From the NCBI RefSeq assembly GCF_012271785.1, contig NZ_JAAWVT010000009.1, positions 62,001 to 126,000 of the forward strand: 64,000 nt of DNA, written 5' to 3'. Positions within the stretch are counted from its first letter, which is position 1. Each line of letters opens with the position of its first letter. The translations under genes and the position numbers were made by a program. The DNA is from Paeniglutamicibacter terrestris. Lineage in GTDB: Bacteria; Actinomycetota; Actinomycetes; Actinomycetales; Micrococcaceae. The notes under the pieces are model-generated. The model had not been told where the DNA came from. It was given only the letters and a program-made list of their open reading frames with translations, and searched no databases. Below, one piece after another: positions 12,882 through 36,647 of the stretch.

Positions 12882-12913
12882 AACTGGCCCTAGAAATAGG
12901 GCCAGTTTTGTTT
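12881..12913 (+). terminator. Prophage-supplied terminator for ssrA
   Basis: A perfect hairpin AAACTGGCCCTA-gaaa-TAGGGCCAGTTT is followed by TGTTT. It replaces the original host terminator, which is now beyond attR at 59940-59980. Confidence 0.88.
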
Positions 12914-12974
12914 AAGTTGGCAGAACCGCCTTATTTGTTGGCAGAAAACGCGACAGACAAGGAAGCGCACGGTT

Positions 12975-14105: not shown

Positions 14106-14151
14106 CCGCAACATTTGCCTGACACTTCAACTTCCCGGTTACGCTAAGCCC

Positions 14152-14835
14152 ATGAAGAAATCACTCGCACTGACAACCCTTTCACTCGCCCTTCTACTGA
14201 CCGCTTGCGGTGGAGGTAGTGCTCCATCATCCAATCCGACGCAGGTTCCGGCCGCAACGGAAACATCACCGTCGGCGGAAGCGACCGTGGAGGCCGCACT
14301 GGAAGAGTCTCCTTCCCTGTCGTCGTCTCCGACTGAGTCGGCTATCGGAAACGTCCCCATGTCGAAATACGCGACCTCGGATCGGGGGCTTACTGTCTAC
14401 GAAGTTGGTGACGCCATTGACTTCTACGCGTCAGACAGTCAGGCCATTAGCGGAACGATGACGATCAACAAGGTTCGTCCGAGCGTGAAGTGTGACGCAA
14501 ACGAGATGATTGTTGACGATCCCGAAAACGGTCGCTTCGTTGGTATTGATGTTTCAATCGTGACTCCGAAAGCCTCAAGTGAGGGTAGCGGCGACTTTAG
14601 CTTAAACACGAGTGCATTTTCAGCTGTTGCCGAAAACGGAACCACCATGAACGGGGACGCGTGGTCTTTCGCGGCCTACACCTGCATGGAAGAAAATATT
14701 AAGACCAGTCTTGGCCCGGGTCGAAAGGCTACCGGAACGCTGATCCTGGATATTCCAAAGGGTGATTCTGTGGTGACCTACGAAGATTTCTACAATGGCG
14801 GTGGCGGCTGGGAGATTGCCGTTCCGGGCAAGTAA
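14152..14835 (+). CDS. Prophage lipoprotein (DUF4352-like fold suspected)
   Basis: The product is 227 residues. The signal peptide ends in a lipobox (LLTAC, Cys19), followed by a Ser/Thr/Pro/Glu linker (about 25-65) and a compact beta-rich domain to the C-terminus with two cysteines. Domains of this type on lipoproteins resemble the DUF4352 immunoglobulin-like family, but that call is by eye. A possible -10 (TACGCT, 14140-14145) lies 6 nt before the ATG with no Shine-Dalgarno sequence, so a leaderless transcript made in the lysogen is likely. A surface lipoprotein next to int suggests lysogenic conversion or superinfection exclusion. Confidence 0.75.
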   Translation: MKKSLALTTLSLALLLTACGGGSAPSSNPTQVPAATETSPSAEATVEAALEESPSLSSSPTESAIGNVPMSKYATSDRGLTVYEVGDAIDFYASDSQAISGTMTINKVRPSVKCDANEMIVDDPENGRFVGIDVSIVTPKASSEGSGDFSLNTSAFSAVAENGTTMNGDAWSFAAYTCMEENIKTSLGPGRKATGTLILDIPKGDSVVTYEDFYNGGGGWEIAVPGK

Positions 14836-14845
14836 CGCTTAACGC

Positions 14846-14894
14846 AAAGAATGCCCCCGAGCTGTCCATTTTGGATAACTCGGGGGCATTCTTG
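14846..14894. terminator. Bidirectional terminator between lipoprotein and lysis genes
   Basis: A strong inverted repeat (AAGAATGCCCCCGAG paired with CTCGGGGGCATTCTT) stands between the convergent lipoprotein (+) and holin-like (-) genes. It can serve both strands. Confidence 0.85.
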
Positions 14895-14911
14895 TGCGGC
14901 GCGCAGGGCGC

Positions 14912-15280
14912 CTACTTTTCGTATTGCTCAGGTTCGTACAGCAGCTGTTCTTCTGCGCCAAGGTCCAGCGTGGTGCCGGGGATTGACTCGGGTTCGTCGG
15001 GCTCAGCGTCGGGCTCGGCTCGGCCTGCTGCGGACAGCCACGGCACGAAACGCACTAGGAACGCGTCTACCGCGGGCACAGCCAGCACGCGGGTAAGCGC
15101 GCCAGCGATGCCAAGCGCGACCGCTGCACCCCCAGTAGCTCCGCCGGGATCACCCTGCGCGATAGCCGCGTAGATAACCTCAGCGGTTGCGGCCAACGCG
15201 ATAAGCGCGACCAGCACGGTTCGGAAGGTAGCGCGCCACGGGTGCGCGCCTTGAGTGGTATTTGCGATGTGCTTAGACAT
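14912..15280 (-). CDS. Holin-like membrane protein
   Basis: The product is 122 residues. Residues about 18-40 form a hydrophobic helix (FRTVLVALIALAATAEVIYA), a second weaker segment is at 50-75, and an acidic C-terminal tail follows. AAGGAATC precedes the ATG. Directly downstream of the endolysin gene on the same strand, it fits a holin letting the endolysin reach the cell wall. There is no sequence motif that proves it. Confidence 0.6.
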   Translation of the reverse strand: MSKHIANTTQGAHPWRATFRTVLVALIALAATAEVIYAAIAQGDPGGATGGAAVALGIAGALTRVLAVPAVDAFLVRFVPWLSAAGRAEPDAEPDEPESIPGTTLDLGAEEQLLYEPEQYEK

Positions 15281-15289
15281 GAAGATTCC

Positions 15290-16675
15290 TTACCAGGCCT
15301 TTGCAGCCTTGAGATTACGGATGAGCTGATCGTTCACGGTGGAGCCGGTGCCCCAGCCTTGTCGCTCGTTGGTGTACTTGATCCACTTCTTGGAGGTGGC
15401 TCCAATGAAGCCGTCCGACTTCCAGTTGTCGGGGACGCCCTTCATTCGCTTGATGGCGTTTTGCACGGAGCGGTTCTCCACGAAAACGGCTTGAGTCTTG
15501 GCACCCCACACGCCGTCGTCCACGAGGCCGTGAGCGCGCTGGAAGACCTTGACGCCAGCCTTCTGCATCGGGCCGTCAACGCCGTTCGCCAGACCGACAT
15601 TGATGCCCATGGCATTGAGAGCCTTCTCAATGGCAATGTTGTCGGCCCTGCTATTGACGCTCGAGCTTGGCTTGGGCATCACGGTGGGCTTCGTGGCAGG
15701 CGCAGGCGTGGCGACCGGCTGCACGGAACCGACCGTCAGCGGTGCAGTGCGGCCCGGGAAAACACCCTTGCGGTTCAGCCAGTCACGGAAGCTGATCCAT
15801 TCACCGTTGCAGCGCATGCCGCCGTGCAGGTGCATCCCGGTTACGTTGCCGGTAGCTCCCATCCAGCCGATGATTTGCCCGGCCTTGACCCTGTCTCCGA
15901 CCTTGACGGTGATCGATTTCAGGTGACCGAAGTTCGACACCATATGATCGGACCCGTACTTGTCCTTGAGCTTCCCGTGATCGATGATCACGATGCGGCC
16001 TGAATGCCATGCCAGCACCCCAGTTCCGGCCGCGGTCACAATGCCGTCAGCGGGCGCAGTGATTGGGGCGCTCACCCCGGCGATGGTGGGTGCCCAGTCA
16101 TCGCCGAGGTGCGGGGCGGTAGCCCCGTTTAAGGTACGAGCCTTCGAGAACCCGCTTGTGAATCGAGCCCCTACAGGAACGGGGGAAGAATATCTGGTCA
16201 CGGGTGCCTCCTGAGGGCTTGGGTCGGTGAGGTTGAGGAATTCTTGCCATCGGCCGGTGGCTCGCATGACGGTTGGGCAGTCTTTGCCGGTCCAATGCGC
16301 ATGGTCATAGACCTTGCTGCTCGGGATGCCGTGCTTGGCTCGGAGGCTGGCAACGACTTCGGCGGCACGTTTGAACGCGGCATCGTAGTCGCTGTCAGAG
16401 TTCACGCAGATCTCCACGGCGATACTCGACTCAGCGCCCTCACGCGTGCCGGCGTGCCAGCACTGTGCGGTATCGGAGTAGGAACGAATCGCTTCGGTGT
16501 CGTCGACTGTGATGTGCCAGGATGCTTGACGAACGTTGCCGTTGCTTTGCAGGTTGGCGTGCGCTTGAGCGCCGGCGCCGCGGGATTGATTAGCGGTTTC
16601 GTGAACCGTGATGCTGGTGCACCGGTTGGTGCCGCCATAAGTTTGCGCGGCGCTCGTGACTAGTTGCTCTCGCAT
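15290..16675 (-). CDS. Endolysin: amidase plus M23 endopeptidase plus wall-binding repeats
   Basis: The product is 461 residues from the ATG at 16675, chosen for the GAAAGG site just upstream; an earlier in-frame start lies before that site. Residues 1-145 are an N-acetylmuramoyl-L-alanine amidase (Amidase_2: H25 in VHETAN, H127 and C133 in HWTGKDCP). Residues 170-300 are an M23 endopeptidase with H189-x3-D193 and H282-x-H284. A Pro/Ala linker (315-340) leads to a peptidoglycan-binding domain (345-461). It should cut both the amide bond to MurNAc and peptide cross-links. Two catalytic domains in one lysin is less common than one. Confidence 0.9.
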   Translation of the reverse strand: MREQLVTSAAQTYGGTNRCTSITVHETANQSRGAGAQAHANLQSNGNVRQASWHITVDDTEAIRSYSDTAQCWHAGTREGAESSIAVEICVNSDSDYDAAFKRAAEVVASLRAKHGIPSSKVYDHAHWTGKDCPTVMRATGRWQEFLNLTDPSPQEAPVTRYSSPVPVGARFTSGFSKARTLNGATAPHLGDDWAPTIAGVSAPITAPADGIVTAAGTGVLAWHSGRIVIIDHGKLKDKYGSDHMVSNFGHLKSITVKVGDRVKAGQIIGWMGATGNVTGMHLHGGMRCNGEWISFRDWLNRKGVFPGRTAPLTVGSVQPVATPAPATKPTVMPKPSSSVNSRADNIAIEKALNAMGINVGLANGVDGPMQKAGVKVFQRAHGLVDDGVWGAKTQAVFVENRSVQNAIKRMKGVPDNWKSDGFIGATSKKWIKYTNERQGWGTGSTVNDQLIRNLKAAKAW

Positions 16676-16693
16676 AGGTCTACCTTTCGGGCA

Positions 16694-16722
16694 ATAAAAG
16701 AGCCCCGACATGATGGCGGGGC
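16694..16722 (-). terminator. Stem-loop with U-tract before the endolysin ribosome-binding site
   Basis: On the minus strand GCCCCG and CGGGGC pair and are followed by TCTTTTATT, then GCCCGAAAGG and the endolysin ATG. It is one of several such modules in the prophage. Confidence 0.7.
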
Positions 16723-16865
16723 GAAATATGAACCGTTCAGGGCAGAATGGTTCTTGGTCTGTTGGTTTCTAAAAATAGATTCTGCTGATAAAAACGGGGA
16801 TCAGATCAAATGACCGTGCGGGAATCCTCCCGGTGCCAGAACCCTAAATCGAAAGGCGGTATCAC

Positions 16866-17852
16866 GTGCTGACTATGGCAGCCGCAACCGTAGAAGCCGC
16901 TGATCCGACGCTCCAGATGGTCACATTGTTCGTTTCTTCTATCGCAGCTCTAAGCGGTATCACAGCAGTTGTTATCGGATCTCGGATGTCATCCCATGAA
17001 TCTAAAAATGTTTGGCTCCGGGAAGAGCAAATTCGATCCTATGAAAGCTTCACTGCGGCAGCGTGGGCCGGTCTCGACGAAATTGCGGGAGGGGCCACGC
17101 AAGCTGCCCTTGACCATCCGGAGTTTTTGGGGCTAGGAGAAGCCCGTGTGAAAGTCGCTTCACATACGTCTTCAATCATCGATGCCTACCGGAAGATTTT
17201 GGTTGTGGGCGGTGAAAAAGTAGTTTCAGCTGCTGGCCAGTATTTCTCGGATTGGAGCCACATACATGGTGCTGCGGTGCCATTGCCCGGGACGGCTCAT
17301 GAGATGGCTCTTCACCAACGCCTTTCAGTCATTACTCAACTCACCCTCGGACTAAGGCAGCTTTCGACGGTGATGCGCGACGATTTGAAACTTTTGAACA
17401 AGAAGCAACGAAAAATACAGCGCAAACAACCTGATGGCACGCAATTTGTTGGATTTCCCCGGACTGACTTCAGCGAGGCGATGCCGGGCGAAGCGAACGC
17501 AATTCTTCAACAGTGGCTAGTCAGGACATGGGATGGTGTCGGCAACTCGATTGGACCGAGCTACGTCAGAAACGACACCCCTTGGGGTCTTCTGAAGGTT
17601 AGACACCGACGATTGCTCCAACCCTTGATTGCGGTCCTTCGCAAGAGTGGAGACCGCCCGTGGATGCTCGCGATCGACTCAGCTCTAACACTGAAACAAA
17701 TTGACCTGGTCGAACGAGACGCGGCGTCCATAGTGGTGAGTCACGGTCATGGTCCGACTACGCATTTCGGCGGGAATCAGTGGTTGCCCGGAGAAACCAC
17801 TGATGAACGGCTCTACTGGTGGACGCTAGCCGAGGCGCCACCCTCAAATTAA
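16866..17852 (+). CDS. Plus-strand membrane-anchored protein of unknown function
   Basis: The product is 328 residues from a GTG preceded by AAAGGCGG. One membrane helix lies near the N-terminus (about 18-40), followed by a mostly helical cytoplasmic region with no motif I recognise. It sits alone on the strand opposite to the lytic operon, between lysis genes and a minus-strand tail-region gene, as a moron would. A role in exclusion of other phages is possible, but that is inference only. Confidence 0.7.
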   Translation: MLTMAAATVEAADPTLQMVTLFVSSIAALSGITAVVIGSRMSSHESKNVWLREEQIRSYESFTAAAWAGLDEIAGGATQAALDHPEFLGLGEARVKVASHTSSIIDAYRKILVVGGEKVVSAAGQYFSDWSHIHGAAVPLPGTAHEMALHQRLSVITQLTLGLRQLSTVMRDDLKLLNKKQRKIQRKQPDGTQFVGFPRTDFSEAMPGEANAILQQWLVRTWDGVGNSIGPSYVRNDTPWGLLKVRHRRLLQPLIAVLRKSGDRPWMLAIDSALTLKQIDLVERDAASIVVSHGHGPTTHFGGNQWLPGETTDERLYWWTLAEAPPSN

Positions 17853-18006
17853 GCTGACCATCATCACCATCCGCACCCTCTTTCACCAATAACCTGGCCA
17901 TTTGTGGCTCGCACCAGTGGAACTCGACGTGCTCTTCCGGCATTGCAGGACCACAACAATTTGGGTGGACGGCCGATTTCGATTCGGTCGGGTCACTTGG
18001 GTTCAT
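17758..18006 (-). CDS. Possible small protein, uncertain
   Basis: An 82-codon frame with GGGGAAAG before its ATG. It lies after a terminator of the gene to its right, and its 3' end overlaps the opposite-strand 16866 gene by 95 bp. Three cysteines and three histidines cluster in the first half. No family is recognised, and the overlap makes it doubtful. Confidence 0.3.
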   Translation of the reverse strand: MNPSDPTESKSAVHPNCCGPAMPEEHVEFHWCEPQMARLLVKEGADGDDGQLNLRVAPRLASTSRAVHQWFLRATTDSRRNA

Positions 18007-18032
18007 TTTCTTTCCCCGCCTTCAAGATAATG

Positions 18033-18064
18033 AGAAAAGCCCGGACCAGTTGGTCTCGGGCTTG
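18033..18064 (-). terminator. Terminator after the 18079-18525 gene
   Basis: The minus-strand hairpin AGCCCGAGACCA paired with TGGTCCGGGCT is followed by TTTTCTCATT. Confidence 0.8.
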
Positions 18065-18078
18065 GGTTCTGGGTGGTG

Positions 18079-18525
18079 CTATTCGGTATCGACGTATTTG
18101 GACGCGAGCTGACTTACTTGCCGGGCGGTTTCTTCCTGCTCGGCATCCTTGGATTTACTGATCTTTATGTGTTCTGTCAGCTTCCCGGCAGTCTGGAGGC
18201 CCTCAGCTTCCACTCGCTTGATTCCCTCTTCCACACGCTTGAGTCCGTCATTCATGGACCCGCCGTGGTTTGGGGTTATCTCGTGGTGGATCTTCGCGGT
18301 TTTCTCTTCGAGGGTCTTGATCCGGAAAGCGACGCCGGGTGATCCCTCATCGGTCTCATTGCCTTGGGCGTCTTTCTTCGAAGGCTTGCCGTTCCATTCG
18401 ACAAGGAATCCATCGACCTTTCGGAGCACCCGCCAAATTTTGATGAAGAGGACTAATGCGGCGCCACCCCAGACGGTGGTCAGCCAGATTTCGCCGAAGA
18501 CGAGATTCGTGAGCCATTCAGGCAT
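18079..18525 (-). CDS. Phage membrane protein with coiled coil (DUF2746-like)
   Basis: The product is 148 residues from the ATG at 18525, placed by the GGAAGG site 8 nt upstream; a GTG start at 18534 overlaps that site. One N-terminal membrane helix (about 10-30) is followed by a charged helical region (EGIKRVEAEGLQTAGKLTEH). Proteins of this layout near actinophage lysis genes are usually annotated DUF2746 and may aid lysis or sit in the tail. The function is not established. Confidence 0.65.
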   Translation of the reverse strand: MPEWLTNLVFGEIWLTTVWGGAALVLFIKIWRVLRKVDGFLVEWNGKPSKKDAQGNETDEGSPGVAFRIKTLEEKTAKIHHEITPNHGGSMNDGLKRVEEGIKRVEAEGLQTAGKLTEHIKISKSKDAEQEETARQVSQLASKYVDTE

Positions 18526-18559
18526 GGGCGGCACCTTCCGGAGCTTGAGGGTTGGTCAT
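18518..18559 (-). CDS. Tiny upstream reading frame (13 codons)
   Basis: It encodes MTNPQAPEGAAHA, is preceded by GAAAGGA, and its stop overlaps the first codons of the 18525 gene. It could be a leader peptide coupling translation, or the remnant of a longer start region. Confidence 0.35.
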   Translation of the reverse strand: MTNPQAPEGAAHA

Positions 18560-18618
18560 GGTTTCCTTTCGGTTTGGGGCCTGACAGGCCATGAAGCGAT
18601 GGCACCCGGCGTTGGCTT

Positions 18619-18626
18619 GATACAAT
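18619..18626 (+). promoter_or_regulatory. Extended -10 promoter of acyltransferase 1
   Basis: TGATACAAT is an extended -10 (TGnTACAAT) 7 nt before the ATG at 18634. No Shine-Dalgarno sequence fits between them, so the transcript is probably leaderless. Confidence 0.6.
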
Positions 18627-18633
18627 CCGGGGT

Positions 18634-19209
18634 ATGTCATCGATTGAAGAGCAGCTCGCGACACTGACAGACCGTGTCCAGAAACTTGAAAAAGCTAATA
18701 CGGATCTACGGAACCGCGTGGCTCGGGCCTACCCGCTCCACTTCATTGCCCCAGAAGGCGTAACTGTTGGTGAAGGGGCGAGAGTGCATCCGACGAGTCA
18801 GCTATTCGCATCTGACGGACGTGACATAAAAATCGGTTCGAAGACGCTGATTCGTCGAGGCGCGGAAATAGTTGGTCCGGTTTCCATTGGTTCAGGATGT
18901 TCATTCAATCGAGACTTGTACATGCGGGCGAATGTCACGATTGGCAACAACGTAAACGTTGGGGCTTTCGCTAAGTTCGTCACCGACACTCACGCAATCG
19001 CAAGTAGTGAACGTCGCGCCGGCCAGTGGACATTTCCTGCCATCACGGTTGGAGACGGTGCATTCATCGGTATCAACGTGACCATTCTGGGTGGAGTAAA
19101 TGTAGGCGCAGGTGCTGTTATTGCAGCCGGCTCGCTGGTCACGAAGGATGTGGAACCCAACTCCATGGTTGGCGGCGTACCCGCAAAGAAGATCAAGGAC
19201 CTGCCGTAG
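18634..19209 (+). CDS. Hexapeptide-repeat acyltransferase 1 (left-handed beta-helix)
   Basis: The product is 191 residues. An N-terminal coiled coil (1-30) precedes a left-handed beta-helix built of imperfect hexads (VTVGEG, ITVGDG, VNVGAG) and ends in SMVGGVPAKKIKDLP, the usual C-terminus of O-acetyltransferases of the CysE/LacA/WbbJ group. By family it would transfer an acetyl or similar group from CoA to a sugar or small metabolite. A paralogue of the same design lies at 21848. It is on the plus strand in a minus-strand phage block, so it is probably expressed in the lysogen. Confidence 0.8.
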   Translation: MSSIEEQLATLTDRVQKLEKANTDLRNRVARAYPLHFIAPEGVTVGEGARVHPTSQLFASDGRDIKIGSKTLIRRGAEIVGPVSIGSGCSFNRDLYMRANVTIGNNVNVGAFAKFVTDTHAIASSERRAGQWTFPAITVGDGAFIGINVTILGGVNVGAGAVIAAGSLVTKDVEPNSMVGGVPAKKIKDLP

Positions 19210-19284
19210 TCGTCCATTTGAAATTTGATCTTCGCTATTCGTAGTGGACAATGAACGGGTTGTCTGCGTACAAGGAGTCTCACG

Positions 19285-20268
19285 ATGGCTATCCACCCGA
19301 TTTACAAGAGCGACGTGATCCACCTGGATTCGCTCGATTCGTTTCAGCCGAAACCTGGCGATGAAGAGCGAATTCATACAATCAACATTGGCGATGGAAT
19401 GGAACTTGGCCTCATGGTCGGGATGCCTACCACCGAGAGCGATGTGCTCCGGGTTGGCTTTCATGCCGCCAAGTCCGCCAAAGACCCCAGAGTACATATG
19501 TTCTCTCCGCTCGCATTATCGCGAGAGTCAGAAGACCCATACATACTCTTTTCAGACCCCACTTTGACCCTTAGTGATTCCACGATCCTCTCTTGGTACC
19601 TGGGCACACCTGAAGTTGACCCTGACGATTGGATGGAACTGCTCGTCCGCCGGATGATGGAAGCCACAGGTGCGAAGTATCTGCTGGTCGAAGGTTCGTC
19701 AGCTGGCGGGTTCACAGCTATGCGGTTCGCTGCGCGATTCCGATTCGCCGTTGCGGTCCCTAAAATCCCGCAAACCGACTTGTTCCGATACCGCGAAGGG
19801 CCCTTAGCTAATACCATGCGCGCCGCAGGCTGGACTGGCATGGGCTATGAACGCGTTATGGCTGAATGCCCTCAACGGTTTCGCACTGCGGACATCTACA
19901 ACGACCGCAATTGGAACAGGGGAAACATCGTTCAGTACGTCCAGAATGTGGGTGACACCTGGCACGTTAACGACCATCTGACACCATTCCTGGCTGAACT
20001 CGGCGCCAGCCGTCCAGACGTGTTCTCAGCCGCCAAGGGCCAGTTCGCTATTTCAAGGCCATTCACAGGCGCTGGCCACGTCGGGATTCCGAGGCCGCAC
20101 TGGGTAGCCGAGGCAAAGTTCGCGCTGAACAGGCTGAGAAAAATGCGACCACTTCCCGAACCTGAATCGCCTTGGGAAAAGCCCTCTACATTCGTTCTGC
20201 CTGCGAATCTGCACGCGGTTCGGGAAGCGAATATCCGTGCCCACTCAATCGGAAACGTGAACTGGTAA
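19285..20268 (+). CDS. Alpha/beta-hydrolase-like protein in the cargo block
   Basis: The product is 327 residues, with AAGGAG before the ATG. The nucleophile elbow GSSAGG is at 137-142 (Ser139), and a candidate catalytic His265 lies in GAGHVG; the acid residue is not certain. It fits a serine esterase, acyltransferase or lipase fold. It follows acyltransferase 1 by 75 bp on the same strand and ends 3 bp from the convergent PP-loop gene. A joint role in modifying or trimming acyl groups on a surface glycan is inferred from the neighbours only. Confidence 0.7.
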   Translation: MAIHPIYKSDVIHLDSLDSFQPKPGDEERIHTINIGDGMELGLMVGMPTTESDVLRVGFHAAKSAKDPRVHMFSPLALSRESEDPYILFSDPTLTLSDSTILSWYLGTPEVDPDDWMELLVRRMMEATGAKYLLVEGSSAGGFTAMRFAARFRFAVAVPKIPQTDLFRYREGPLANTMRAAGWTGMGYERVMAECPQRFRTADIYNDRNWNRGNIVQYVQNVGDTWHVNDHLTPFLAELGASRPDVFSAAKGQFAISRPFTGAGHVGIPRPHWVAEAKFALNRLRKMRPLPEPESPWEKPSTFVLPANLHAVREANIRAHSIGNVNW

Positions 20269-20270
20269 CT

Positions 20271-21407
20271 TTATTCGCCCCGGAGTAGCCTCATGACCTT
20301 GGCGGCCTCGAACCAATCTTTGCGGTCGTAAGGCATGATGTTGTTTTGCGTTAGACGGTTGTACCAATCGCCCAGCACATGTTTGTCCACGCCGTGGTAA
20401 GCCTGCGGGTTCACCTTCGACATGAATGAGATGTCGATTTGCTCGAGGGCTTCAACGACGTTTGCCGGGATACCTTCGACGTAGGACGGTGAAATGTAGT
20501 CGACACCCATCGTCTTGATGACGTAAAGGGAAGACAAATCAGTGGCAAAAGATCCGCCCCAATTTATCTTCGTACTGCGATTGAGAATTTCTGGGAGCTG
20601 AGTCGGGATGTTTAAGTCGGTCGAGACGGCTTCAACCATCTGATATTTTCGCTGGAATTTGTCTTCATGCGGCAACGCAACAGACATGAGTGCATCAACT
20701 AGAAGCCCAGGGTGGTTCTTGGCAACTATCTGCAGAGCTCCGATTTCCGTCACGCCGGTCACAGGATTTTCTAGCTTCATCCCCAGCGCGTTCGCAACAG
20801 GAATGCCGCCCGTGCTCTGGTCGAGTGGATGGGAGAACAGGCGTGGCAAAGATCCCGCAAGGATTGACCCGAAAGAGTACGATCCAAGCTGCAGTTCGTC
20901 ACGCAGCAGTATGGAACCGATTCCCATGAACTGCCACCCATAGGTGTTCAGTTTGAGCGCTGTCATATTAGTGCGGATCGTAAACGGGTTGAAGCGCTCG
21001 AAGAAATTACGTTCGCGGCTAAAGTTCCCGCCGAAATCGAGAGAGATCAGGTTGGCGTCTTTCAAGATTTCCTTGGCAGCAAGGGAATCGAATCCGCCCG
21101 AGAAGTTTAACCCACGTTGAGTGCCCGGCCGGTGCCGAGTGCCAAGCCCGTGAAGATGAATCAGCTTAGCTTGTAATGCTTGCTCGATTGTCTTCACCTG
21201 CTCAGGGCCAATCGGGAGCGCAATCTCTACTTCGTCGAATGCCTGTCCGCAGAGCGAAGCATAGGCAGCTGCAATAAGATCCGGGGAAGGGACGAATGAG
21301 TAGGGAAGTTGAATTCGAAACTCTTCCGTTGTTTCGCGAGTTACGTTGCAACGTATCCAGCCGTCAGCCGACACATCAATATCAGTAAACGCAATTCGTT
21401 TTGTCAT
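20271..21407 (-). CDS. PP-loop (adenine nucleotide alpha-hydrolase-like) protein
   Basis: The product is 378 residues from the ATG at 21407; an in-frame TTG 12 nt upstream is possible. SGGFDS at 103-108 is the PP-loop that binds ATP pyrophosphate in asparagine-synthetase-like, tRNA-thiolation and ExsB-like enzymes. Such enzymes adenylate a carboxyl or carbonyl. The N-terminal 95 residues are not recognised. It is the only minus-strand gene of the cargo block and could belong to the same pathway, for example by making an amidated or adenylated intermediate. Confidence 0.7.
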   Translation of the reverse strand: MTKRIAFTDIDVSADGWIRCNVTRETTEEFRIQLPYSFVPSPDLIAAAYASLCGQAFDEVEIALPIGPEQVKTIEQALQAKLIHLHGLGTRHRPGTQRGLNFSGGFDSLAAKEILKDANLISLDFGGNFSRERNFFERFNPFTIRTNMTALKLNTYGWQFMGIGSILLRDELQLGSYSFGSILAGSLPRLFSHPLDQSTGGIPVANALGMKLENPVTGVTEIGALQIVAKNHPGLLVDALMSVALPHEDKFQRKYQMVEAVSTDLNIPTQLPEILNRSTKINWGGSFATDLSSLYVIKTMGVDYISPSYVEGIPANVVEALEQIDISFMSKVNPQAYHGVDKHVLGDWYNRLTQNNIMPYDRKDWFEAAKVMRLLRGE

Positions 21408-21512
21408 CCAACATCCCAATCTAGTTGTAGCCCAAGTGAAGATGATACGTGTGAACGGCTACAATCTGAATCTACAGCCCAATATTTTCACCTCTTCATA
21501 CAAGGACGCCCG

Positions 21513-21761
21513 GTGAACCAAAGCGATTCTGATGCAATCGATCCTGCTGTGGAAATGATGCTCTCGACGTTGGATTCCATTTTCGAGGAAGACCCAACTC
21601 CGGATCCACAACGCCAACGCCTTACCCGGCGTCACTCTTCGCTATCAATAGAGCTTGAAGCATTCGACAATGACCCCAGCAATTCGTTGAACCGGATCCG
21701 CTCGGAGATCGTTGCGGATTTGCGGCGCGTCATCGAAGAGATGCAAGGTGGGCACGACTGA
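21513..21761 (+). CDS. Small acidic helical protein of unknown function
   Basis: The product is 82 residues from a GTG preceded by AAGGAC. An in-frame ATG at 21309 would run antisense through the PP-loop gene and was rejected. It is rich in Asp, Glu and Arg, with a predicted helical C-terminus (RSEIVADLRRVIEEM). No family is recognised. Confidence 0.55.
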   Translation: MNQSDSDAIDPAVEMMLSTLDSIFEEDPTPDPQRQRLTRRHSSLSIELEAFDNDPSNSLNRIRSEIVADLRRVIEEMQGGHD

Positions 21762-21847
21762 TTGCTGCTGTCACTCGCTAGGCAAGATGCGTATTTGATG
21801 GCGCTTAGATTTTAATTCACACACGTCCGACAACTAGACTGCAGCCC

Positions 21848-22405
21848 ATGTCCACTATTGAAGATCGTCTCGCTGCCTTGGAAGAAGTTGTGCAAGAGTT
21901 GAGGGCGGAGGTTGCGAGGCTTCGTCCTCCCCGATCTTGGGTCCCCGTTGAAGGTGTCACAAAAGGCCAGGGCGCTCGGATACACCCGACCTGCGCGATG
22001 ATTACAGGTGCAGGGCGAGAAATATCTGTCGGAGAAAGGACGAGCGTTCTCCGTTACGGTGAATGGGTTGGCCCGATCAGCATTGGCAAACATTGCTTTA
22101 TTAATCAGAAGTCTTACATTCGGGCTAATGTCTCGATCGGCGACAACGTCAATATTGGTCCGTTCGTAAAACTTGTCACCGATGGGCACGTTCAAGGCCC
22201 GGCTTCTCGACGCGCAGCAGCAAACACTTTCGAGCCGATCTCCATCGGCTCGGGTACCTGGATCGGGGCAGGTGTCATAGTCACGGCAGGTGTCACGATT
22301 GGTGAATCGTGCATAATCGCCGCTGGATCAGTGGTAACGAAGGATGTGCCGCCAAATACCATGGTTGGCGGAGTTCCAGCTAGGAAGATAAAGGATTTGC
22401 CCTGA
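21848..22405 (+). CDS. Hexapeptide-repeat acyltransferase 2, paralogue of 18634
   Basis: The product is 185 residues with the same layout as the 18634 protein: an N-terminal coiled coil ([20 protein letters not shown]), hexad beta-helix turns (ISIGSG, VTIGES) and the C-terminus [15 protein letters not shown]. The shared closing motif and N-terminus point to duplication of one ancestor and possibly a mixed trimer. -10 TAGACT (21835-21840) is 7 nt before the ATG and TTAATT lies 17 bp further up, so a leaderless mRNA is again likely. The acceptor substrate is unknown. Confidence 0.8.
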
Positions 22406-22496
22406 CAGCCTAGGATCAAGCGAAATTGGTTGCGGCCTAAGGTAACCCTGCGTCGAATGAAGTGGAAAACTCTCTCACGTCTTACGGTAGCGGCGG

Positions 22497-22645
22497 TCAC
22501 CAATTATCTGAATGGGCAAGTTGCCAGCTTTCGCAGGCTTCGTCTCCGCAGTCGCACCCGGTCACGGATTTTCCGTGGCTGAGTAAAAATTCTGGGCTGA
22601 CGCCTGAACGTTTCGCGTAGCAGCGAGGAATTCGGCTGCAGTCAT
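22497..22645 (-). pseudogene. Frameshift-broken small tail-region gene
   Basis: From an ATG at 22645 (after a stem-loop and AGGATCC) the frame begins MTAAEFLAAT, then loses sense and stops. A second frame continues as AKRSGVSPEFLLSHGKSV and then TGCDCGDEACESWQLA to a stop at 22497. Joined, they give a protein of about 48 residues ending in a CxC...C...W segment that looks like a short actinophage tail-region protein. There is one frame change near 22615. The rest of 22406-22722 shows no other gene. Confidence 0.5.
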
Positions 22646-22672
22646 TTCGAAGGATCCTATCGGGGGGACGAG

Positions 22673-22710
22673 GCCGTGTGGAGGGCATAAAAAATGCGCC
22701 TCCACACGGG
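22673..22710 (-). terminator. Inverted repeat downstream of the tail operon
   Basis: CCGTGTGGAGG pairs with CCTCCACACGG around a T-rich loop. It ends the minus-strand tail transcript, or heads the broken gene to its left. Confidence 0.65.
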
Positions 22711-22722
22711 CGCTCATTATGG

Positions 22723-22941
22723 TTATTCGGTTGGTGAATCCGCCGGTGGGTCGATGGCCGGAGGAGTCTCTGCCTTCGCTGTTTGTAGATCTTCAACATC
22801 CCCTCCACCGTCAACATACTTAGCGGTGAGGTCCCGGATCTGGTCCGGGATAGTAGCGAGTGCCTGCCTGCGTTCCCGCTCCGCTAGGACAGCATTCAGG
22901 TGTTCGTATAGTTCGTCGTCAGTCATGGTCTTGAGGTCCAT
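22723..22941 (-). CDS. Small acidic tail-region protein
   Basis: The product is 72 residues, with an ideal AAGGAGCACCC leader before the ATG. The N-terminal half is helical (MTDDELYEHLNAVLAERER) and the C-terminus is Pro/Ala/Asp rich. It lies 9 bp after the fibre gene. Similar short genes follow tail fibres in many actinophages; the function is unknown. Confidence 0.65.
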   Translation of the reverse strand: MDLKTMTDDELYEHLNAVLAERERRQALATIPDQIRDLTAKYVDGGGDVEDLQTAKAETPPAIDPPADSPTE

Positions 22942-22950
22942 GGGTGCTCC

Positions 22951-24870
22951 TTAGTTGGGGATTGTTCCGACAGCAGTTCCGGGAAGGGACGTGGGCCAAG
23001 CCTGCTGTGTTGACCAGCTGACCTTCCCGCGGTAGAAGTCGCCGGGCACTGGCGAAAGGTACACCGGGACCCAGCCCGATGAGGCGACACCAACCCGTCG
23101 GAGGCCCGGGGGCCCATCGACCCCGTTGTACCAATGCGTGATGGGTGGTCGAAATCCGACGGGGATGCCGCCTGCTGCGAGCATGTCGTAGGCAGACCCG
23201 GTGGCTCCACTCATGGCAACATCAGAAAACACGAGCGAAACCTCGTCCCTTGACCGGGACAGGTATAGCTTTCCCGACGTGACATTTGGGGCCAGTGCGG
23301 TGATATCCCGAAGCCCGGATTCTCCGTAGACGAGCTGCTCGCGCCCGTTGACGTAGTCCCAGATCCTGACCGCACGTCCTGCCGTCTCCGAAACGGTGTA
23401 GCGCTGCCCTGTATCCAGAATCGCGCCAACGGCTGCAGAAGCGAACCTTGCATAACCAGCGCTGCTCAGGTGAATATCAACGGTCGAAGCCGACCACCGC
23501 TTATCTAGCTGCTTCCCGTTTGGGTCGGTAATTGCCTCGGCGGCATCCAAGACCATGAGAGCACCACCGGGAAGGGTGTCTTTGATCCACTTATTGAGCT
23601 GCTGGCGTACCGTCTCCTGAGCTGCGGACGCATCGTGTCGTGGAAGGCACGTCAACATCACAACGTTCTTAGTTGTCACCGATGAGATCAGTGGGAACGT
23701 GGTGTTGAATCGAGTGATGAGGTTCGCCAGGGTTACGCCTGCGGCAAACACATCGTTGGACCACATGTCCCAATACAGGGTCGTGGGTCGGGCAATCTTG
23801 TAGAGACTACTAATGTACTTGTTGAACTTCCACGCCAAGGTGCTCGTCCACTCAGTCATGGCGGTGCCCGAATGCGCGTAGAACATGGGGATCGCACGAT
23901 TGGCTCGGGCATGCCGAGAAGCCCAAGAGTCGTAGACCGGTAGGGCGGCCGACTGGCCCACAGTCAGCGATGTCCCGAAATAGGCGTGCACCGGAGTGTT
24001 CTCCGGAACTTCGACTTCGATCCATACGTCCAGCGGGGATTCCTGGACCTGCGTCATCGGCGGGTTGGGTGTATTCACTGCGACGGAGCCGCCGGTAAGT
24101 GACCAGCCGCCGCCTTGGGCTAGATGGTTGTTCTGTGCCGCGGACGTGTATCCGTATCGAATAACATAGTCTCTTTCGATTTCCAGCGGGTAGTCATCGA
24201 CCCATGGTGTGACGTATTCGGAACCTGTCGAGGGAGTTTGGATCCCGCTGTTGCCGACGATGTTCTTGCCGGTACCGGTCAGGAAGGCTCCAAACGCATC
24301 ACCGTTTGAGATGCGAACCATCTCCCCGATACTGATGCCCATGATGGTCAGTGCGCCCGTGTAAGCGACACCGGAACGGTCATTGTAGTTACGGAAGTGA
24401 ATGCGCCAGCGAGGTACACGGACAGCTGTTGTGTACGGCAGGGCATGGCCCACGTCGATGGCAGTGGTGACACCGCCGCCCTGAGCGCATGTGAGTGCAG
24501 TGCCCACGCGCTTGGCCTGCGGCCGGAGCTTCCACCCGCTCGTGTTGGCTGGGACAGTGGAAATGGTGCGTTCCCACGTGCGGCCAAGATCGCCAAGCTC
24601 TGCCCAAACGACGGTGCTCGTCGTTGAACCGACGGGCGTGATAGTTACCTGACCGGGTCCCGCACCGTAGGGCCGCTCAGCGATCCCGTCAACGAAAGCC
24701 TGCGTTGGTAGGCGGTAGATTCCGTCGTTGGCCAGCCCGGTCCAAGTGGTCAGGGCGCCCGCTGGCACGGAATTCTTGAACTTGAGCGCGTCTTCGGCGC
24801 CGGTCCCCGAGTCGCCTTTGAGGCCACGGGGTCCGCGATTGTTTCCTACGATGATGTAATTTGCAGCCAT
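22951..24870 (-). CDS. Tail fibre with SGNH-hydrolase domain
   Basis: The product is 639 residues. A short collagen-like start (GPRGLKGDSG, residues 13-22) is followed by beta-rich fibre sequence. Residues about 290-490 contain an SGNH/GDSL esterase: Ser301 in FGTSLTVG, Asn372 in WSND, and the Asp465/His467 pair in DIHLSS. The last 150 residues are again beta-rich. By family it would remove acyl groups from a cell-surface polymer during adsorption. Its presence in a phage that also carries two acyltransferases is notable. Confidence 0.82.
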   Translation of the reverse strand: MAANYIIVGNNRGPRGLKGDSGTGAEDALKFKNSVPAGALTTWTGLANDGIYRLPTQAFVDGIAERPYGAGPGQVTITPVGSTTSTVVWAELGDLGRTWERTISTVPANTSGWKLRPQAKRVGTALTCAQGGGVTTAIDVGHALPYTTAVRVPRWRIHFRNYNDRSGVAYTGALTIMGISIGEMVRISNGDAFGAFLTGTGKNIVGNSGIQTPSTGSEYVTPWVDDYPLEIERDYVIRYGYTSAAQNNHLAQGGGWSLTGGSVAVNTPNPPMTQVQESPLDVWIEVEVPENTPVHAYFGTSLTVGQSAALPVYDSWASRHARANRAIPMFYAHSGTAMTEWTSTLAWKFNKYISSLYKIARPTTLYWDMWSNDVFAAGVTLANLITRFNTTFPLISSVTTKNVVMLTCLPRHDASAAQETVRQQLNKWIKDTLPGGALMVLDAAEAITDPNGKQLDKRWSASTVDIHLSSAGYARFASAAVGAILDTGQRYTVSETAGRAVRIWDYVNGREQLVYGESGLRDITALAPNVTSGKLYLSRSRDEVSLVFSDVAMSGATGSAYDMLAAGGIPVGFRPPITHWYNGVDGPPGLRRVGVASSGWVPVYLSPVPGDFYRGKVSWSTQQAWPTSLPGTAVGTIPN

Positions 24871-24874
24871 CGTG

Positions 24875-25372
24875 TCACCACCACCTTGTGATTATGTCGC
24901 CCAAAGTGAGCTCGGGGATTGGTCCGGTTTCCCGGTCTGGGTCTGCGGGGTCGAGGTAGTTCCAGATGTATCCGCGAGCTGGGGGCGGGGTGAGTCCTAC
25001 CCACCAGATCCATGGGTTGGCTCCACCGCCGGGGCCGCTACCTATGCCGGTAAGATTGGCCAGCTCGGATAGGGTGCCACCGCCAGCGGGGACACGGATC
25101 TGGAAGTCCAAGTAGGCGATCAGGTTGCCCTCTTCGTCGAGCCACTCGATCCGGACTGTGTACCAAGCATCGCGAAGCATGCTCACGGTCGGTTCGAGGT
25201 TCGTGGAGAACGTCCCATCCGATCCGGGGGTCACCGTCTGCGTATTCTCAGGTCGGATTCCGCCGCCGGACGCGGTGATATTTCCGGCGTTGAGGGTGAA
25301 CTTCACAATCCCATTACGGTTAGCCATCGCTACCCCGCCAATGTCTTTCAGGTTCCCGGTCACGGTCGCCAT
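24875..25372 (-). CDS. Minor tail protein with Ig/carboxypeptidase-like fold
   Basis: The product is 165 residues, with AAGGAGCACCT before the ATG. The sequence (IRPENTQTVTPGSDGTFSTN) resembles a carboxypeptidase-regulatory or Ig-like beta-sandwich, followed by a Gly/Pro-rich linker and a Trp-rich tail. It sits 4 bp before the fibre gene and may join fibre to baseplate. Confidence 0.65.
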   Translation of the reverse strand: MATVTGNLKDIGGVAMANRNGIVKFTLNAGNITASGGGIRPENTQTVTPGSDGTFSTNLEPTVSMLRDAWYTVRIEWLDEEGNLIAYLDFQIRVPAGGGTLSELANLTGIGSGPGGGANPWIWWVGLTPPPARGYIWNYLDPADPDRETGPIPELTLGDIITRWW

Positions 25373-25387
25373 AGGTGCTCCTTAAAA

Positions 25388-25415
25388 GCGAAAGCCACCG
25401 GGTGAGCGGTGGCTT
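25388..25415 (-). terminator. Stem-loop between small tail gene and minor tail gene
   Basis: The minus-strand AGCCACCG-ctcacc-CGGTGGCT is followed by TTCGCTTTT and then directly by AAGGAGC of the next gene. A near-identical stem-loop occurs at 48247-48269. Confidence 0.7.
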
Positions 25416-25424
25416 GGTGAGTGG

Positions 25425-25598
25425 TTAGCTGGAACGAGGCGGGCCGGGCTTGGGTGCCCGTTCGGCTTCGAGTTCTAGGATGCGTCGGTCGCGTATCTTG
25501 ACCAGGGCATTCGCCTTGGCCAGAAGGAACTGAGTGTCAGCCAAAGCTTGCCGGTACTCATCAACAACACTCTGAGCTGTTATTTGTTCGTCGGTCAT
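25425..25598 (-). CDS. Small helical tail-region protein (57 residues)
   Basis: It starts at an ATG with AGGAGCACCC upstream and is mostly one charged helix (VVDEYRQALADTQFLLAK, then RDRRILELEAERA) with a Pro-rich end. It probably forms a coiled coil. It is in line with the tail operon, between the repeat-bearing fibre-like protein and the Ig-like protein. No family is recognised. Confidence 0.65.
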   Translation of the reverse strand: MTDEQITAQSVVDEYRQALADTQFLLAKANALVKIRDRRILELEAERAPKPGPPRSS

Positions 25599-25606
25599 GG
25601 GTGCTC

Positions 25607-26491
25607 CTATGCGGTGACTCGATAGAAAATGCCGTTGGAATCGACGTGGACGTTGGCGGTGGCCACGGTCGTGTTGGGTAAGCTCCCGACGCGAAGGCGG
25701 TTTTGGGATAGCTCTGTTGTCGCACCTGCTTTGATGGTCCCTGTGACTACCAAGTTTCCGTTCACGCTGGTCTGCGGAGCGTTGAGGTTGATGATGGTTG
25801 ACTCAAGGGTCACCTTGCTTTGCCCGGAGACTTGCACAGTGTCGTGATTCAGCGACATGCCCAGTGCGTTGCTCGCACTGATAGCCCCGCCTGGAACGTT
25901 CATCTGCGCCGTTCCTGCGCCCTGATTCTCAAGGACCAAACCCCCGAGGATGATCTTCTTGGAAGGGTCCACGGTCAGGTTGTTCTTGAGAGTCGTCGGC
26001 CCATCGATGGACAGTGAGCCCTTGGAGACCAGATCGCCGTTGGCAGCAATGTCGAACAGTCCGAACTTCGCGCTCCCGTCCGGGTTCAACTCGAACGATC
26101 CCGCCGCTAGCGTCCCATCTGGCGAAATGTCCAGTCCGCCAAACGTGGCCGAACCATCCGGCCGTATCTGTGAATCGCCAGCAGTGAATAACCCGCCTGA
26201 GACAATCGCAAAGTTTCCCGCAACGTCAGTCGGGCCAGTTAGGTGGTTGGATCCACTTAGGTTGTTCGTGCCCGAAAGATTATTCGTCCCAGAAAGGTTG
26301 TTCGTTCCGCTTCCATTGAGCGTGCCCGTGACATCAAGTACACCGTCAATAGCAACATACGATTCGTTCATCCAATGAGTACTGCCCCGGTCGACCACCG
26401 TTGAAGATAGGTCAGTCTTGGTGCCGTACTGCCGATCCTTACGCTGCTGCCGAGTGACATTCTCCCCGGTCAGGTCTACGGTTCGCGCCAT
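25607..26491 (-). CDS. Repeat-containing minor tail or fibre protein
   Basis: The product is 294 residues. Residues 58-85 are tandem NNLSGT hexapeptides (18-bp DNA repeats at about 26236-26315). They are followed by beta-helix-like repeats with recurring PDGSATF, PDGTLAA and PDGSAKF units, a pattern typical of phage fibre shafts. GGGAGGGTGACGC precedes the ATG. It likely forms a trimeric fibre near the baseplate. Confidence 0.7.
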   Translation of the reverse strand: MARTVDLTGENVTRQQRKDRQYGTKTDLSSTVVDRGSTHWMNESYVAIDGVLDVTGTLNGSGTNNLSGTNNLSGTNNLSGSNHLTGPTDVAGNFAIVSGGLFTAGDSQIRPDGSATFGGLDISPDGTLAAGSFELNPDGSAKFGLFDIAANGDLVSKGSLSIDGPTTLKNNLTVDPSKKIILGGLVLENQGAGTAQMNVPGGAISASNALGMSLNHDTVQVSGQSKVTLESTIINLNAPQTSVNGNLVVTGTIKAGATTELSQNRLRVGSLPNTTVATANVHVDSNGIFYRVTA

Positions 26492-26494
26492 GCG

Positions 26495-27598
26495 TCACCC
26501 TCCCTTCGGCTGGAATTCGATCTTCACAAAGTCATCTGTAATGTCGCCCGAGTATTTGAGCACCCGCCATTCACGCCAGCCGGTAGTGAAGTATGGGTCG
26601 TCGCTGATGTACCAGCGAACAATCGTTCCCGGACGCAGCTCCCACAAGTTACCGAGAATTGGAGAGTCGAGCTTGAGCTCGAAACCTGCCTGCCGAACTG
26701 CGTGGTTATTGGCGATCAGCGCGGAAGACGCCTGTTCGTACAGCTCGTCACCCTTTTTGATGTTCTTGAACTGTTCGGTGCGTTCCAGTGCTGGATAGTC
26801 AGCAATGTTCGATGACGCCGATTCGCGCACCAGCATGCCGGGGCTTTTCGCCGTTCTCTGCCCGGACCCTTCGCCGACCGCAAACATCTGCGTCGCAACT
26901 TCGCTTGCGTCGGTCTCGATCCACAAGCCACTCGCTGGCGTCTCGGGTGCTGAGAAGTTCACCTCTATGGTGTTCAGTGAAAGGTCGCCTGTGCGTAGGG
27001 TGAAGCGAATTCCTCCGGCGCCGTCCCACTCCGGACGGAAATCAACATCAGGGCCATCGGAAAGATCCATGATCTCTTCCATGGCATCCAGCGCCGTGTC
27101 CATGTTGTACCCGTAGTAAGTACGAGTGCGGCCGCCGGTGTAGTCGTCCTCGTAGACCATGGGGACGTTGCGACCAGAACCGGCAACTGCCAGCTGGATG
27201 ATCCGCTTGATGATCGTGTCGTACTCCAAACCGGAGTACGTTTTCTTCCAGTTCACAATGTTCTGATCGCGCACTTCACTGATCAGCCGAGCGTCCCACA
27301 GGGACCAGATGTCCTCGTGGGTAAGGCTGAGGGCCCGTGTATCACGAACGTATCGTGCCCTCCGAATGAGCCCGGCATACACCACCACATCGTCATAATC
27401 GACAATGATGAGGCGCTGCGCCGGGTACGTATCAGTCAGCCCCGCGGTTGCGGCGACATCCGGATCGGACAGGACCAGCGAGGTTGACCCGCCGAAGACG
27501 TGATTGAATCCCCGCTCCCACGGCGAGGATTGCGGCTTGAGCTCTACCCGGTCAGACCACGTCTTAGAAGACAAGCTCCACACTCTGTAACCAGACAA
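26495..27598 (-). CDS. Baseplate/tail-hub protein (Gp37-like)
   Basis: The product is 367 residues from a TTG with a strong TAGGAGGCG site. It lies after the distal-tail gene, where siphoviruses encode the hub or tail-associated protein; the fold is rich in beta-strands (VVVYAGLIRRARY, IRFTLRTGDL). It resembles the ReqiPepy6 Gp37-like group of actinophage minor tail proteins. That assignment rests on position and general appearance. Confidence 0.7.
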   Translation of the reverse strand: MSGYRVWSLSSKTWSDRVELKPQSSPWERGFNHVFGGSTSLVLSDPDVAATAGLTDTYPAQRLIIVDYDDVVVYAGLIRRARYVRDTRALSLTHEDIWSLWDARLISEVRDQNIVNWKKTYSGLEYDTIIKRIIQLAVAGSGRNVPMVYEDDYTGGRTRTYYGYNMDTALDAMEEIMDLSDGPDVDFRPEWDGAGGIRFTLRTGDLSLNTIEVNFSAPETPASGLWIETDASEVATQMFAVGEGSGQRTAKSPGMLVRESASSNIADYPALERTEQFKNIKKGDELYEQASSALIANNHAVRQAGFELKLDSPILGNLWELRPGTIVRWYISDDPYFTTGWREWRVLKYSGDITDDFVKIEFQPKGG

Positions 27599-27606
27599 GG
27601 CGCCTC

Positions 27607-31627: not shown

Positions 31628-31668
31628 GGAATCTCCAAAATGACTAAGGCCCCGATAAGATCAAAGGC

Positions 31669-31950
31669 ATGACTAATAAGCGGGCAATTCCAGCGCAAGA
31701 AATAATCAGTAAATCCGGTGACAGGCTGGAAATAACAGGCATTGTCATTTCGTTTCTCTGCTTAGCCATTGGCGTGGTCTCACTCTTCAATGGCGGCAAT
31801 GGAATACCACTAGTGGGCATCGTGCTCGGCCTGCTGCTGATGATCACCGGCTACGCGAAGAAGACGTCAGCGGCGACGATGGCGATGTTCATCATGCAGT
31901 CCGTTGACCGCGAGCTAGCCACTGAAAACAAGGCGAGTACTCAGCAATAA
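31669..31950 (+). CDS. Plus-strand two-helix membrane protein between tape measure and chaperone
   Basis: The product is 93 residues with two hydrophobic segments (about 22-42 and 48-65). It stands alone against the strand of the tail operon, and its 3' end overlaps the chaperone extension by 36 bp. -10 TAAGAT (31656-31661) is 7 nt before the ATG, so a leaderless transcript in the lysogen is likely. It may be a membrane exclusion protein, but this is a guess. Confidence 0.65.
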   Translation: MTNKRAIPAQEIISKSGDRLEITGIVISFLCLAIGVVSLFNGGNGIPLVGIVLGLLLMITGYAKKTSAATMAMFIMQSVDRELATENKASTQQ

Positions 31951-35214: not shown

Positions 35215-35229
35215 GGCCACACCCTCCTT

Positions 35230-36632: not shown

Positions 36633-36647
36633 AATGGCCTCCTAAGT

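Follow-up and report, generated by a model that had tools for sequence, protein, structure and literature searches.

Among the closest described systems is NeuO, a prophage-encoded left-handed beta-helix (LbH) enzyme whose O-acetylation is reported to protect Escherichia coli K1 from a K1 phage (PMC13001214; PMC3046976); the second of these reports describes an acetyl-CoA-using LbH subgroup in which a Trp stands opposite the catalytic loop His. CsaC, an enzyme with an alpha/beta-hydrolase fold, is described as acetylating a polymer of N-acetylmannosamine (ManNAc) (PMC7501274), and Asp2 is reported to carry out triad-based O-acetylation of N-acetylglucosamine (GlcNAc) (PMC5578698). Here we analyzed a 64,000-nucleotide stretch of the Paeniglutamicibacter terrestris genome (GCF_012271785.1, contig NZ_JAAWVT010000009.1, positions 62,001 to 126,000; hereafter, the window), in which a prophage carries a block of genes for two LbH acyltransferases (acylT1 and acylT2), an alpha/beta-hydrolase-type protein, a PP-loop-type protein, and a small acidic protein. 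Judged from its sequence, the block is probably cargo for lysogenic conversion, altering how a surface polysaccharide of the host is acylated and perhaps also decorated in another way; on our best reading, its effect would be NeuO-like but obtained with a different toolkit. The support for surface-glycan cargo comes from homology, gene context, gene fusion, and the recurrence of one family in related prophages.

An earlier note on this DNA had proposed such a five-gene block, and all five open reading frames (ORFs) were found inside the prophage, uninterrupted, with the GSSAGG hydrolase-type gene and the SGGFDS PP-loop gene lying between the acyltransferase genes as it had said. The note had also placed most of the genes opposite the lytic strand. 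This holds for acylT1, the hydrolase gene, and acylT2, which run opposite the structural (late) genes on the minus strand of the prophage, but not for the PP-loop gene, which is on the late strand. The block is bordered by a holin-like gene on one side and by a small phrog_7100 gene and the tail fiber gene on the other.

Both acyltransferases, called hexapeptide enzymes in the earlier note, are indeed LbH proteins by the Pfam Hexapep model (E = 4.6e-18 and 64.5 bits for acylT1, E = 9.1e-19 and 66.7 bits for acylT2; cut-off, 27 bits). The C-terminus of the pair, given here for the first of the two, reads GGVPAKKIKDLP. When the acylT profile was compared with solved proteins, hexapeptide, maltose, and galactoside O-acetyltransferases came out on top. 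A His is kept in all 22 rows of the tree alignment, and as D-x-H in all 15 rows of the subfamily; from family knowledge rather than alignment to NeuO, we take it to be catalytic. In the tree, acylT1, acylT2, the stand-alone host paralogue on contig C6, and one sequence from genome G167 form a group (support, 94/91) nested in the 15-row subfamily (99/97), and the acetyltransferases of the actinophages Clark, Gorpy, Peas, Sekhmet, and EvePickles fall outside this subfamily; the prophage enzymes thus cluster with cellular genes, and these actinophages carry other LbH lineages. (Genomes are labeled G, loci L, and contigs of the host assembly C.) Two other identities were tried and rejected: an antibiotic-type acyltransferase (acylT1 scored 53.5 with CatB against a cut-off of 350 and 50.6 with Vat against 300) and a defense system (no PADLOC matches at E ≤ 0.01 for five proteins).

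A -10-like hexamer stands before both acyltransferase genes, as the earlier note had seen, and in each case TANNNT lies exactly 7 nucleotides before the ATG. Over both strands of the window, this spacing occurs at 11 of 1989 ATGs, and a spacing of 6 to 8 at 26 of 1989, the two acylT sites included in each count. Because the arrangement is so rare among the ATGs of the window, its presence at both genes is unlikely to be due to chance, a judgment made post hoc. Instead of a hexamer, AAGGAG precedes the ATG of the hydrolase gene, making an acylT1-hydrolase operon plausible. We infer that the acyltransferase genes would be transcribed in the lysogen from their own predicted promoters of leaderless type.

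In the alpha/beta-hydrolase-type protein, Ser139, Asp224, and His265 are invariant in all 22 rows of the family alignment. None of the Pfam matches of the window protein alone is over the cut-off. A profile of the 22 rows, searched against all PDB sequences, gave as its best match Asp2, a component of the accessory Sec system (4.6e-8), followed by SacC (9e-4 and 1.3e-3); we take SacC to be CsaC, the O-acetyltransferase of the meningococcal serogroup A capsule. This profile makes a glycan O-acyltransferase like Asp2 and CsaC the more likely identity of the "hydrolase," and the name given to it in the note has been corrected to this extent.

The two kinds of enzyme are also linked outside the window. 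We sampled the best acylT-profile loci (160 bits or more; n = 11) outside the host's own genome in 295 family genomes, counting a hydrolase relative at a profile E of ≤1e-5 within the fetched stretch (up to about 9 kb on each side). A hydrolase relative was fused to or near the acyltransferase at 7 of these 11 subfamily loci versus 0 of 20 other LbH loci (Fisher, 1.3e-4). The comparison set was made up of the ordinary LbH loci ranked next, of which 20 were fetched and G222 was passed over for lying at a contig edge; selection of the loci is not fully independent, as one of the four acylT-profile rows came from a fusion. The linked loci comprise fusions in G291, G201, and G154, adjacent genes in G312, G167, and G309, and a gene about 5 kb off in G008; no hydrolase relative was found near the acyltransferase in G011, G143, and G244, nor in G144, where the match is at the start of a contig and a single side could be read. 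By eye, the pair in G312 adjoins integrase-like ORFs and is probably on another mobile element. The host genome itself has an acylT paralogue (56%; C6:80711-81268) beside a gene (C6:81273-82778; L032 8274-9779) whose 501-amino-acid product joins an Asp2/CsaC-like domain to an LbH acyltransferase. About 19 to 20 kb from these paralogues, and among genes that look by eye like glycosyltransferase genes, lie the sole UDP-GlcNAc 2-epimerase-family gene of the genome (C6:60673-61704) and one of its two UDP-sugar dehydrogenase-family genes over the cut-off (C6:62509-63039; the other is at C12:106261). A PP-loop paralogue is on C12, near a GT2-like gene (by eye). The substrate may be a glycan of the ManNAc or N-acetylmannosaminuronic acid (ManNAcA) type.

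Relatives of the PP-loop protein are present in 3 of 99 genomes, the host's own counted, and at 14 loci in the GTDB species set. The SGGFDS loop is invariant in all 14 rows of the PP-loop alignment; two genes left out of it, those of L046 (an Oscillospiraceae metagenome-assembled genome) and L047 (Kocuria marina), read in two frames, possibly owing to a frameshift or a sequencing error. When translations within about 4.5 kb were inspected by eye, 11 of the 14 loci had a glycan-type gene near the PP-loop relative, and none was recognized at L039, L041, and L046. A UDP-GlcNAc 2-epimerase stands beside the relative at five loci (L035, L038, L040, L042, and L047) and a UDP-sugar dehydrogenase at seven (L034 to L038, L040, and L047), likewise by eye. 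The 10-kb flanks contain hydrolase-family relatives at 3 of the 14 loci (E ≤ 1e-5): a strong match at L047, one of 9e-11 at L042, and a partial match at L043. The L042 relative is the second gene upstream of the PP-loop gene and matches Pfam Asp2 at 2.5e-6, just under the cut-off. The AlphaFold model of the PP-loop protein is confident (predicted local distance difference test [pLDDT] score, 87.6), no Pfam or NCBIfam family matched the protein over the cut-off, and its profile had no match in PDB up to E = 1. Judging from the SGGFDS loop alone, the protein would be expected to use ATP. These findings point to a PP-loop-like family of glycan clusters, one that is unrecognized by any Pfam or NCBIfam model in these searches.

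Related prophages were sought with the minor tail protein encoded at 26495-27598, which matched at 19 places in 16 of 395 genomes; 18 of the 19 were examined, the window included, with a simple gene caller and with phage ends unmapped. The hydrolase family occurs in 4 of the 18 prophages, that is, in 3 of 17 besides the window: in G159 on the opposite strand directly after a GDSL fiber, in G421 beyond the lysis genes, and in G465 beside a DUF6270 gene between the integrase and lysis genes. The G465 copy is also found in one IMG/VR contig of 53,575 bases, starting near an integrase. By a rough Poisson estimate, 0.025 hydrolase relatives would be expected in that much sequence and the probability of at least three is 2.6e-6, good to an order of magnitude, as the background was 31 rows of a single-protein search set against a more sensitive profile, and the length per prophage was guessed at 16 kb. 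In G129, the fiber gene is followed directly by DUF6270, and farther along lies a rhamnosyltransferase-like gene that may fall outside the prophage; G219 has an EpsG-family gene (2.5e-47) on the late strand between the fiber and a holin-like gene. By above-cut-off Pfam matches or the hydrolase profile, a glycan-type gene is thus present in 6 of the 18; DUF6270, on which no paper was found in our literature search, was counted as glycan-type by context, lying within about 5 kb of a hydrolase gene in L030 (Pfam), L031, and L075 (both by eye). For genes in G446 (Wzy-like) and G124 (Asn-synthase/NAD-synthase-like), the matches stayed under the cut-off, and the G291 slot holds an opposite-strand gene without a family. 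These other surface-sugar genes in the same region of some related prophages suggest that such viruses may alter the surface sugars of their hosts. tblastn of the G465 and G159 hydrolases and the G465 DUF6270 protein against 50,697 phage records gave no match. In IMG/VR, conserved-peptide scans, which are less sensitive, gave no relative of the window hydrolase; the four-row acylT alignment gave 330 matches among the viral contigs (best 80 kept), and a single-protein scan with acylT2 gave none.

Several further genes were observed in and around these prophages. The G124 gene (L228 8117-9694), encoding 525 amino acids on the opposite strand of the prophage slot, is perhaps a second PP-loop-like cargo. 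In G465, the DUF6270/hydrolase pair is flanked by genes at L230 5045-5914 and 7615-8727, which resemble each other by eye; the latter has a weak RES-domain match under the cut-off. Beyond these 18 prophages, a hydrolase relative in G011 adjoins an integrase near fiber-type genes and possibly lies outside the prophage; G007 has a phage-like locus with DUF6270.

The tail fiber of the window prophage, the last large tail gene before the cargo, has a weak match, under the cut-off, to the esterase-type GDSL/SGNH domain. Fibers of 17 of the 18 related prophages were scanned (one G154 prophage, L071, was left out), and 14 of the 17 matched an esterase, deacetylase, or glycosidase domain (E ≤ 0.05), 7 of them over the Pfam cut-off. 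All six fibers accompanied by glycan-type cargo did so: GDSL in the window and G421 (below the cut-off) and in G159 (above), polysaccharide deacetylase in G129 (above) and G465 (below), and phosphodiester glycosidase in G219 (above). So did 8 of the 11 without such cargo: GDSL in G291 and G124 (above) and in G223, G268 (two prophages), and G154 (below), and deacetylase in G201 and G275 (above), with no match in G446, G122, and G145. An obligatory pairing of cargo acylase and fiber deacylase, which we had considered, was dropped, as the fiber domain is frequent whether or not cargo is present. Of the IMG/VR records containing an LbH gene, 50 were searched (50 of the 80 loci given), and only 2 had a GDSL match. 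Because GDSL, polysaccharide deacetylase, or glycosidase matches are found in so many fibers, the acylation state of the host glycan probably matters for adsorption, and other phages could be excluded by cargo that alters this state. Two SGNH-domain tail fibers of Klebsiella prophages are reported to be esterases, and the same report proposes that phages compete in ways shaped by acetylation and deacetylation (PMC13123978).

From these observations a mechanism can be proposed. Once expressed in the lysogen, acylT1 and acylT2 would take acetyl (or other acyl) groups from CoA and place them on a glycan, or a glycan precursor, in the cytoplasm, and the Asp2/CsaC-like enzyme would O-acylate the polymer via a Ser-acyl intermediate. 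The PP-loop protein might use ATP to activate a carboxylate, for example that of a ManNAcA-type uronic acid, for further modification. Phages that read the glycan, the prophage's own relatives among them, would then adsorb less well to its altered form; many of these relatives have fibers matching esterase or deacetylase domains.

Several results weigh against surface-glycan modification as the role of the block. The kinship of the hydrolase family to Asp2 and SacC is remote and rests on the 22-row profile; at E ≤ 0.1, Hydrolase_4 matches 6 of the 22 members and Pfam Asp2 only 1, the G421 member is over the Pfam Peptidase_S9 cut-off, and the AlphaFold model of the window protein is poor (pLDDT, 41, from a 2-row alignment). 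The Trp of the WIG motif, whose column is presumed to be the NeuO Trp position, is kept in acylT2 and replaced by Phe (FIG) in acylT1, the sole exception among 22 rows. For the PP-loop model, a Foldseek search of the PDB gave nothing credible (no match at E ≤ 0.001), and on C6 the 609-amino-acid neighbor taken for a glycosyltransferase (L032:3791-5617) has no Pfam match. Since ordinary hydrolases and esterases follow SacC in the PDB list from E = 2.5e-3 and share the fold and triad, the alpha/beta-hydrolase could instead be an esterase trimming the groups added by the LbH enzymes, a form of acylation editing with which the fusion of hydrolase and LbH domains would also agree; this variant, which stays within the surface-glycan reading, seems to us the less likely, as both of the solved proteins that rank highest with the profile are O-acetyltransferases. 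A diffusible small molecule is a much less probable substrate. PP-loop enzymes often catalyze ligations and the acyltransferases also score with the chloramphenicol CatB and Vat models, so that CatB/Vat-like LbH enzymes and an esterase might detoxify or build a compound together with a PP-loop ligase; those scores are far under their cut-offs, though the same is true of the sugar-acetyltransferase models in the list, and glycan-type genes predominate in the genomic surroundings of the three families.

The position of the enzyme genes directly after the tail fiber gene would fit decoration of the virion (a tail fiber or capsid glycan) instead of the host surface. We consider this highly improbable, since three of the four enzymes are encoded opposite the late strand, both acyltransferase genes have promoter-like sites, and the homologues reside in cellular glycan clusters. 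Chance insertion of host glycan genes at a permissive prophage site, unselected for any benefit to the phage, is likewise unlikely, if less so, and more of the evidence against the surface-glycan reading bears on it. The earlier note had looked to co-occurrence of the set elsewhere: acyltransferase and hydrolase occur side by side at other loci too, and related prophages carry further members of the hydrolase family, but the complete five-gene set was not found elsewhere in these searches. tblastn of the window PP-loop and hydrolase proteins against the 50,697 phage records gave no match, and a PP-loop relative was found neither in 72,556 plasmid records nor in the less sensitive IMG/VR scans. 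In addition, no glycan gene was recognized in 12 of the 18 related prophages, not every gene there having been scanned, and the two 2-kb bins of the block are the GC minimum of the prophage (0.543 and 0.529). Against chance insertion stand the uninterrupted ORFs of the block, the hydrolase family in three other related prophages, far more than expected, and the two further relatives (G129 and G219) with other glycan-type genes in the same region. The note's reading of the block as surface-glycan cargo is partly supported and stays the probable one, with the identity of the hydrolase and the strand of the PP-loop gene amended.

A broader proposal, which we put forward tentatively, is that the fiber-to-integrase stretch of this Micrococcaceae prophage lineage might be an exchange site for surface-polysaccharide genes of several kinds known from glycan clusters of cells (LbH acyltransferases, Asp2/CsaC-like O-acyltransferases, DUF6270, EpsG/Wzy-type polymerases, a glycosyltransferase, and PP-loop enzymes). 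Each prophage would then re-type the host surface and lock out relatives whose fibers read or shave the old one, and the PP-loop protein of the present block could represent a novel class of ATP-dependent enzymes that modify glycans.

The features of the prophage and block are given in Table 1. One of the 21-bp direct repeats (12859-12879) coincides with the 3′ end of the tmRNA gene, and the other lies at 59915-59935. The small acidic ORF is the weakest member of the set and had no significant family match in profile searches; its likely start is the GTG at 21513, since a start at the TTG at 21309 would overlap the start of the PP-loop gene. Three other features were noted. An extra opposite-strand ORF of 328 amino acids (16866-17852, plus strand), with a hydrophobic N-terminal segment by eye, lies between the endolysin and holin-like genes; it had nothing over the Pfam cut-off and no PHROG, NCBIfam, or PADLOC matches. 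A putative lipoprotein gene (by eye; 14152-14835, plus strand) adjoins the integrase gene and may be additional cargo; it had NCBIfam matches far under the cut-off and no others. A tRNA-like call by ARAGORN within a tail gene (26076-26164, minus strand; anticodon undetermined) is probably spurious.

TABLE 1 Features of the prophage and its cargo block (positions in the window)
Feature	Position	Strand	Remarks
Prophage	12859..59935		About 47 kb; 21-bp direct repeats at both ends
tmRNA gene	12511-12879		3′ end is the left prophage repeat
Integrase-like ORF	12975-14105	+
Holin-like/membrane gene	18079-18534	-	One border of the slot; phrog_9869 (unknown function), 3.4e-7; holin phrog_15431, 8e-4
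Cargo block	18634-22405		Five ORFs
-10-like hexamer TACAAT	18621-18626	+	Read as TGaTACAAT, extended -10; 7 nt before acylT1 ATG
acylT1, LbH (hexapeptide) acyltransferase	18634-19209	+	N-terminal coiled-coil-like segment; Hexapep, alignment
Alpha/beta-hydrolase-type protein	19285-20268	+	GSSAGG; Ser139-Asp224-His265
PP-loop-type protein	20271-21404	-	SGGFDS; TTG start at 21419 also possible
Small acidic ORF	21513-21761	+	82 amino acids from GTG
-10-like hexamer TAGACT	21835-21840	+	7 nt before acylT2 ATG
acylT2, LbH acyltransferase	21848-22405	+	N-terminal coiled-coil-like segment; Hexapep, alignment
Small gene after fiber	22723-22941	-	phrog_7100; other border of the slot
Tail fiber	22951-24870	-	Lipase_GDSL_2, E = 4e-4, 21.3 bits (cut-off, 32.9)

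To our knowledge, the phage receptors of Arthrobacter-type bacteria have been little studied, and the block supplies concrete genes whose deletion should alter the surface glycan and phage sensitivity. Literature searches on acetyltransferases, O-acetylation, and tail hydrolases or esterases of prophages (those of Arthrobacter included) and actinophages gave no paper describing the block, as judged by titles and the beginnings of abstracts. The actinophages Clark, Sekhmet, Gorpy, EvePickles, and Peas (five records compared of 23 matched) resemble the window prophage in having an LbH acetyltransferase opposite the late strand, beyond the last tail genes and on the integrase side, but their enzymes belong to the separate lineages described above, and they differ further in that the hydrolase and PP-loop protein have no match in the phage records searched. 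Adjacent to or near the LbH gene are genes that match GDSL in Clark and Sekhmet, polysaccharide deacetylase in Gorpy and EvePickles, and, in Peas, a glucanase-like beta-helix protein and an AT3-SGNH protein. The last of these, gp30 of Arthrobacter phage Peas (L157 4496-6613), is annotated as a thioesterase, is by Pfam an AT3 acyltransferase-SGNH fusion, and adjoins the LbH acetyltransferase gp31.

Among the cellular systems, Asp2 is the best PDB profile match of the hydrolase family and carries out triad-based glycan O-acetylation, but is part of a protein export system. CsaC/SacC also matches the family profile and has a Ser-Asp-His triad, and it acts on ManNAc, and the present host has a UDP-GlcNAc 2-epimerase-family gene; the similarity is remote, however, the CsaC triad has a Gln extension, and CsaC is encoded in a capsule locus rather than as prophage cargo. 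NeuO of E. coli K1 prophage CUS-3 is, like acylT1 and acylT2, a prophage-encoded LbH acyltransferase with a segment preceding the LbH domain, and acylT2 matches the CUS-3 neuO record weakly (27.7% over 82%, E = 1e-6). It differs in its phase-variable heptanucleotide repeat, whereas the acyltransferase genes of the block have no variable tandem repeat (Tandem Repeats Finder over 18000-23000 found a single 21-bp, 1.9-copy repeat at 18207-18246, outside them). The block also differs in its gene content, a pair of LbH genes being accompanied by those for an alpha/beta-hydrolase-type enzyme and a PP-loop protein, and in its actinobacterial host. If our reading is true, the idea of prophage capsule O-acetylation known from NeuO would be extended to actinobacteria and to a different catalytic fold.

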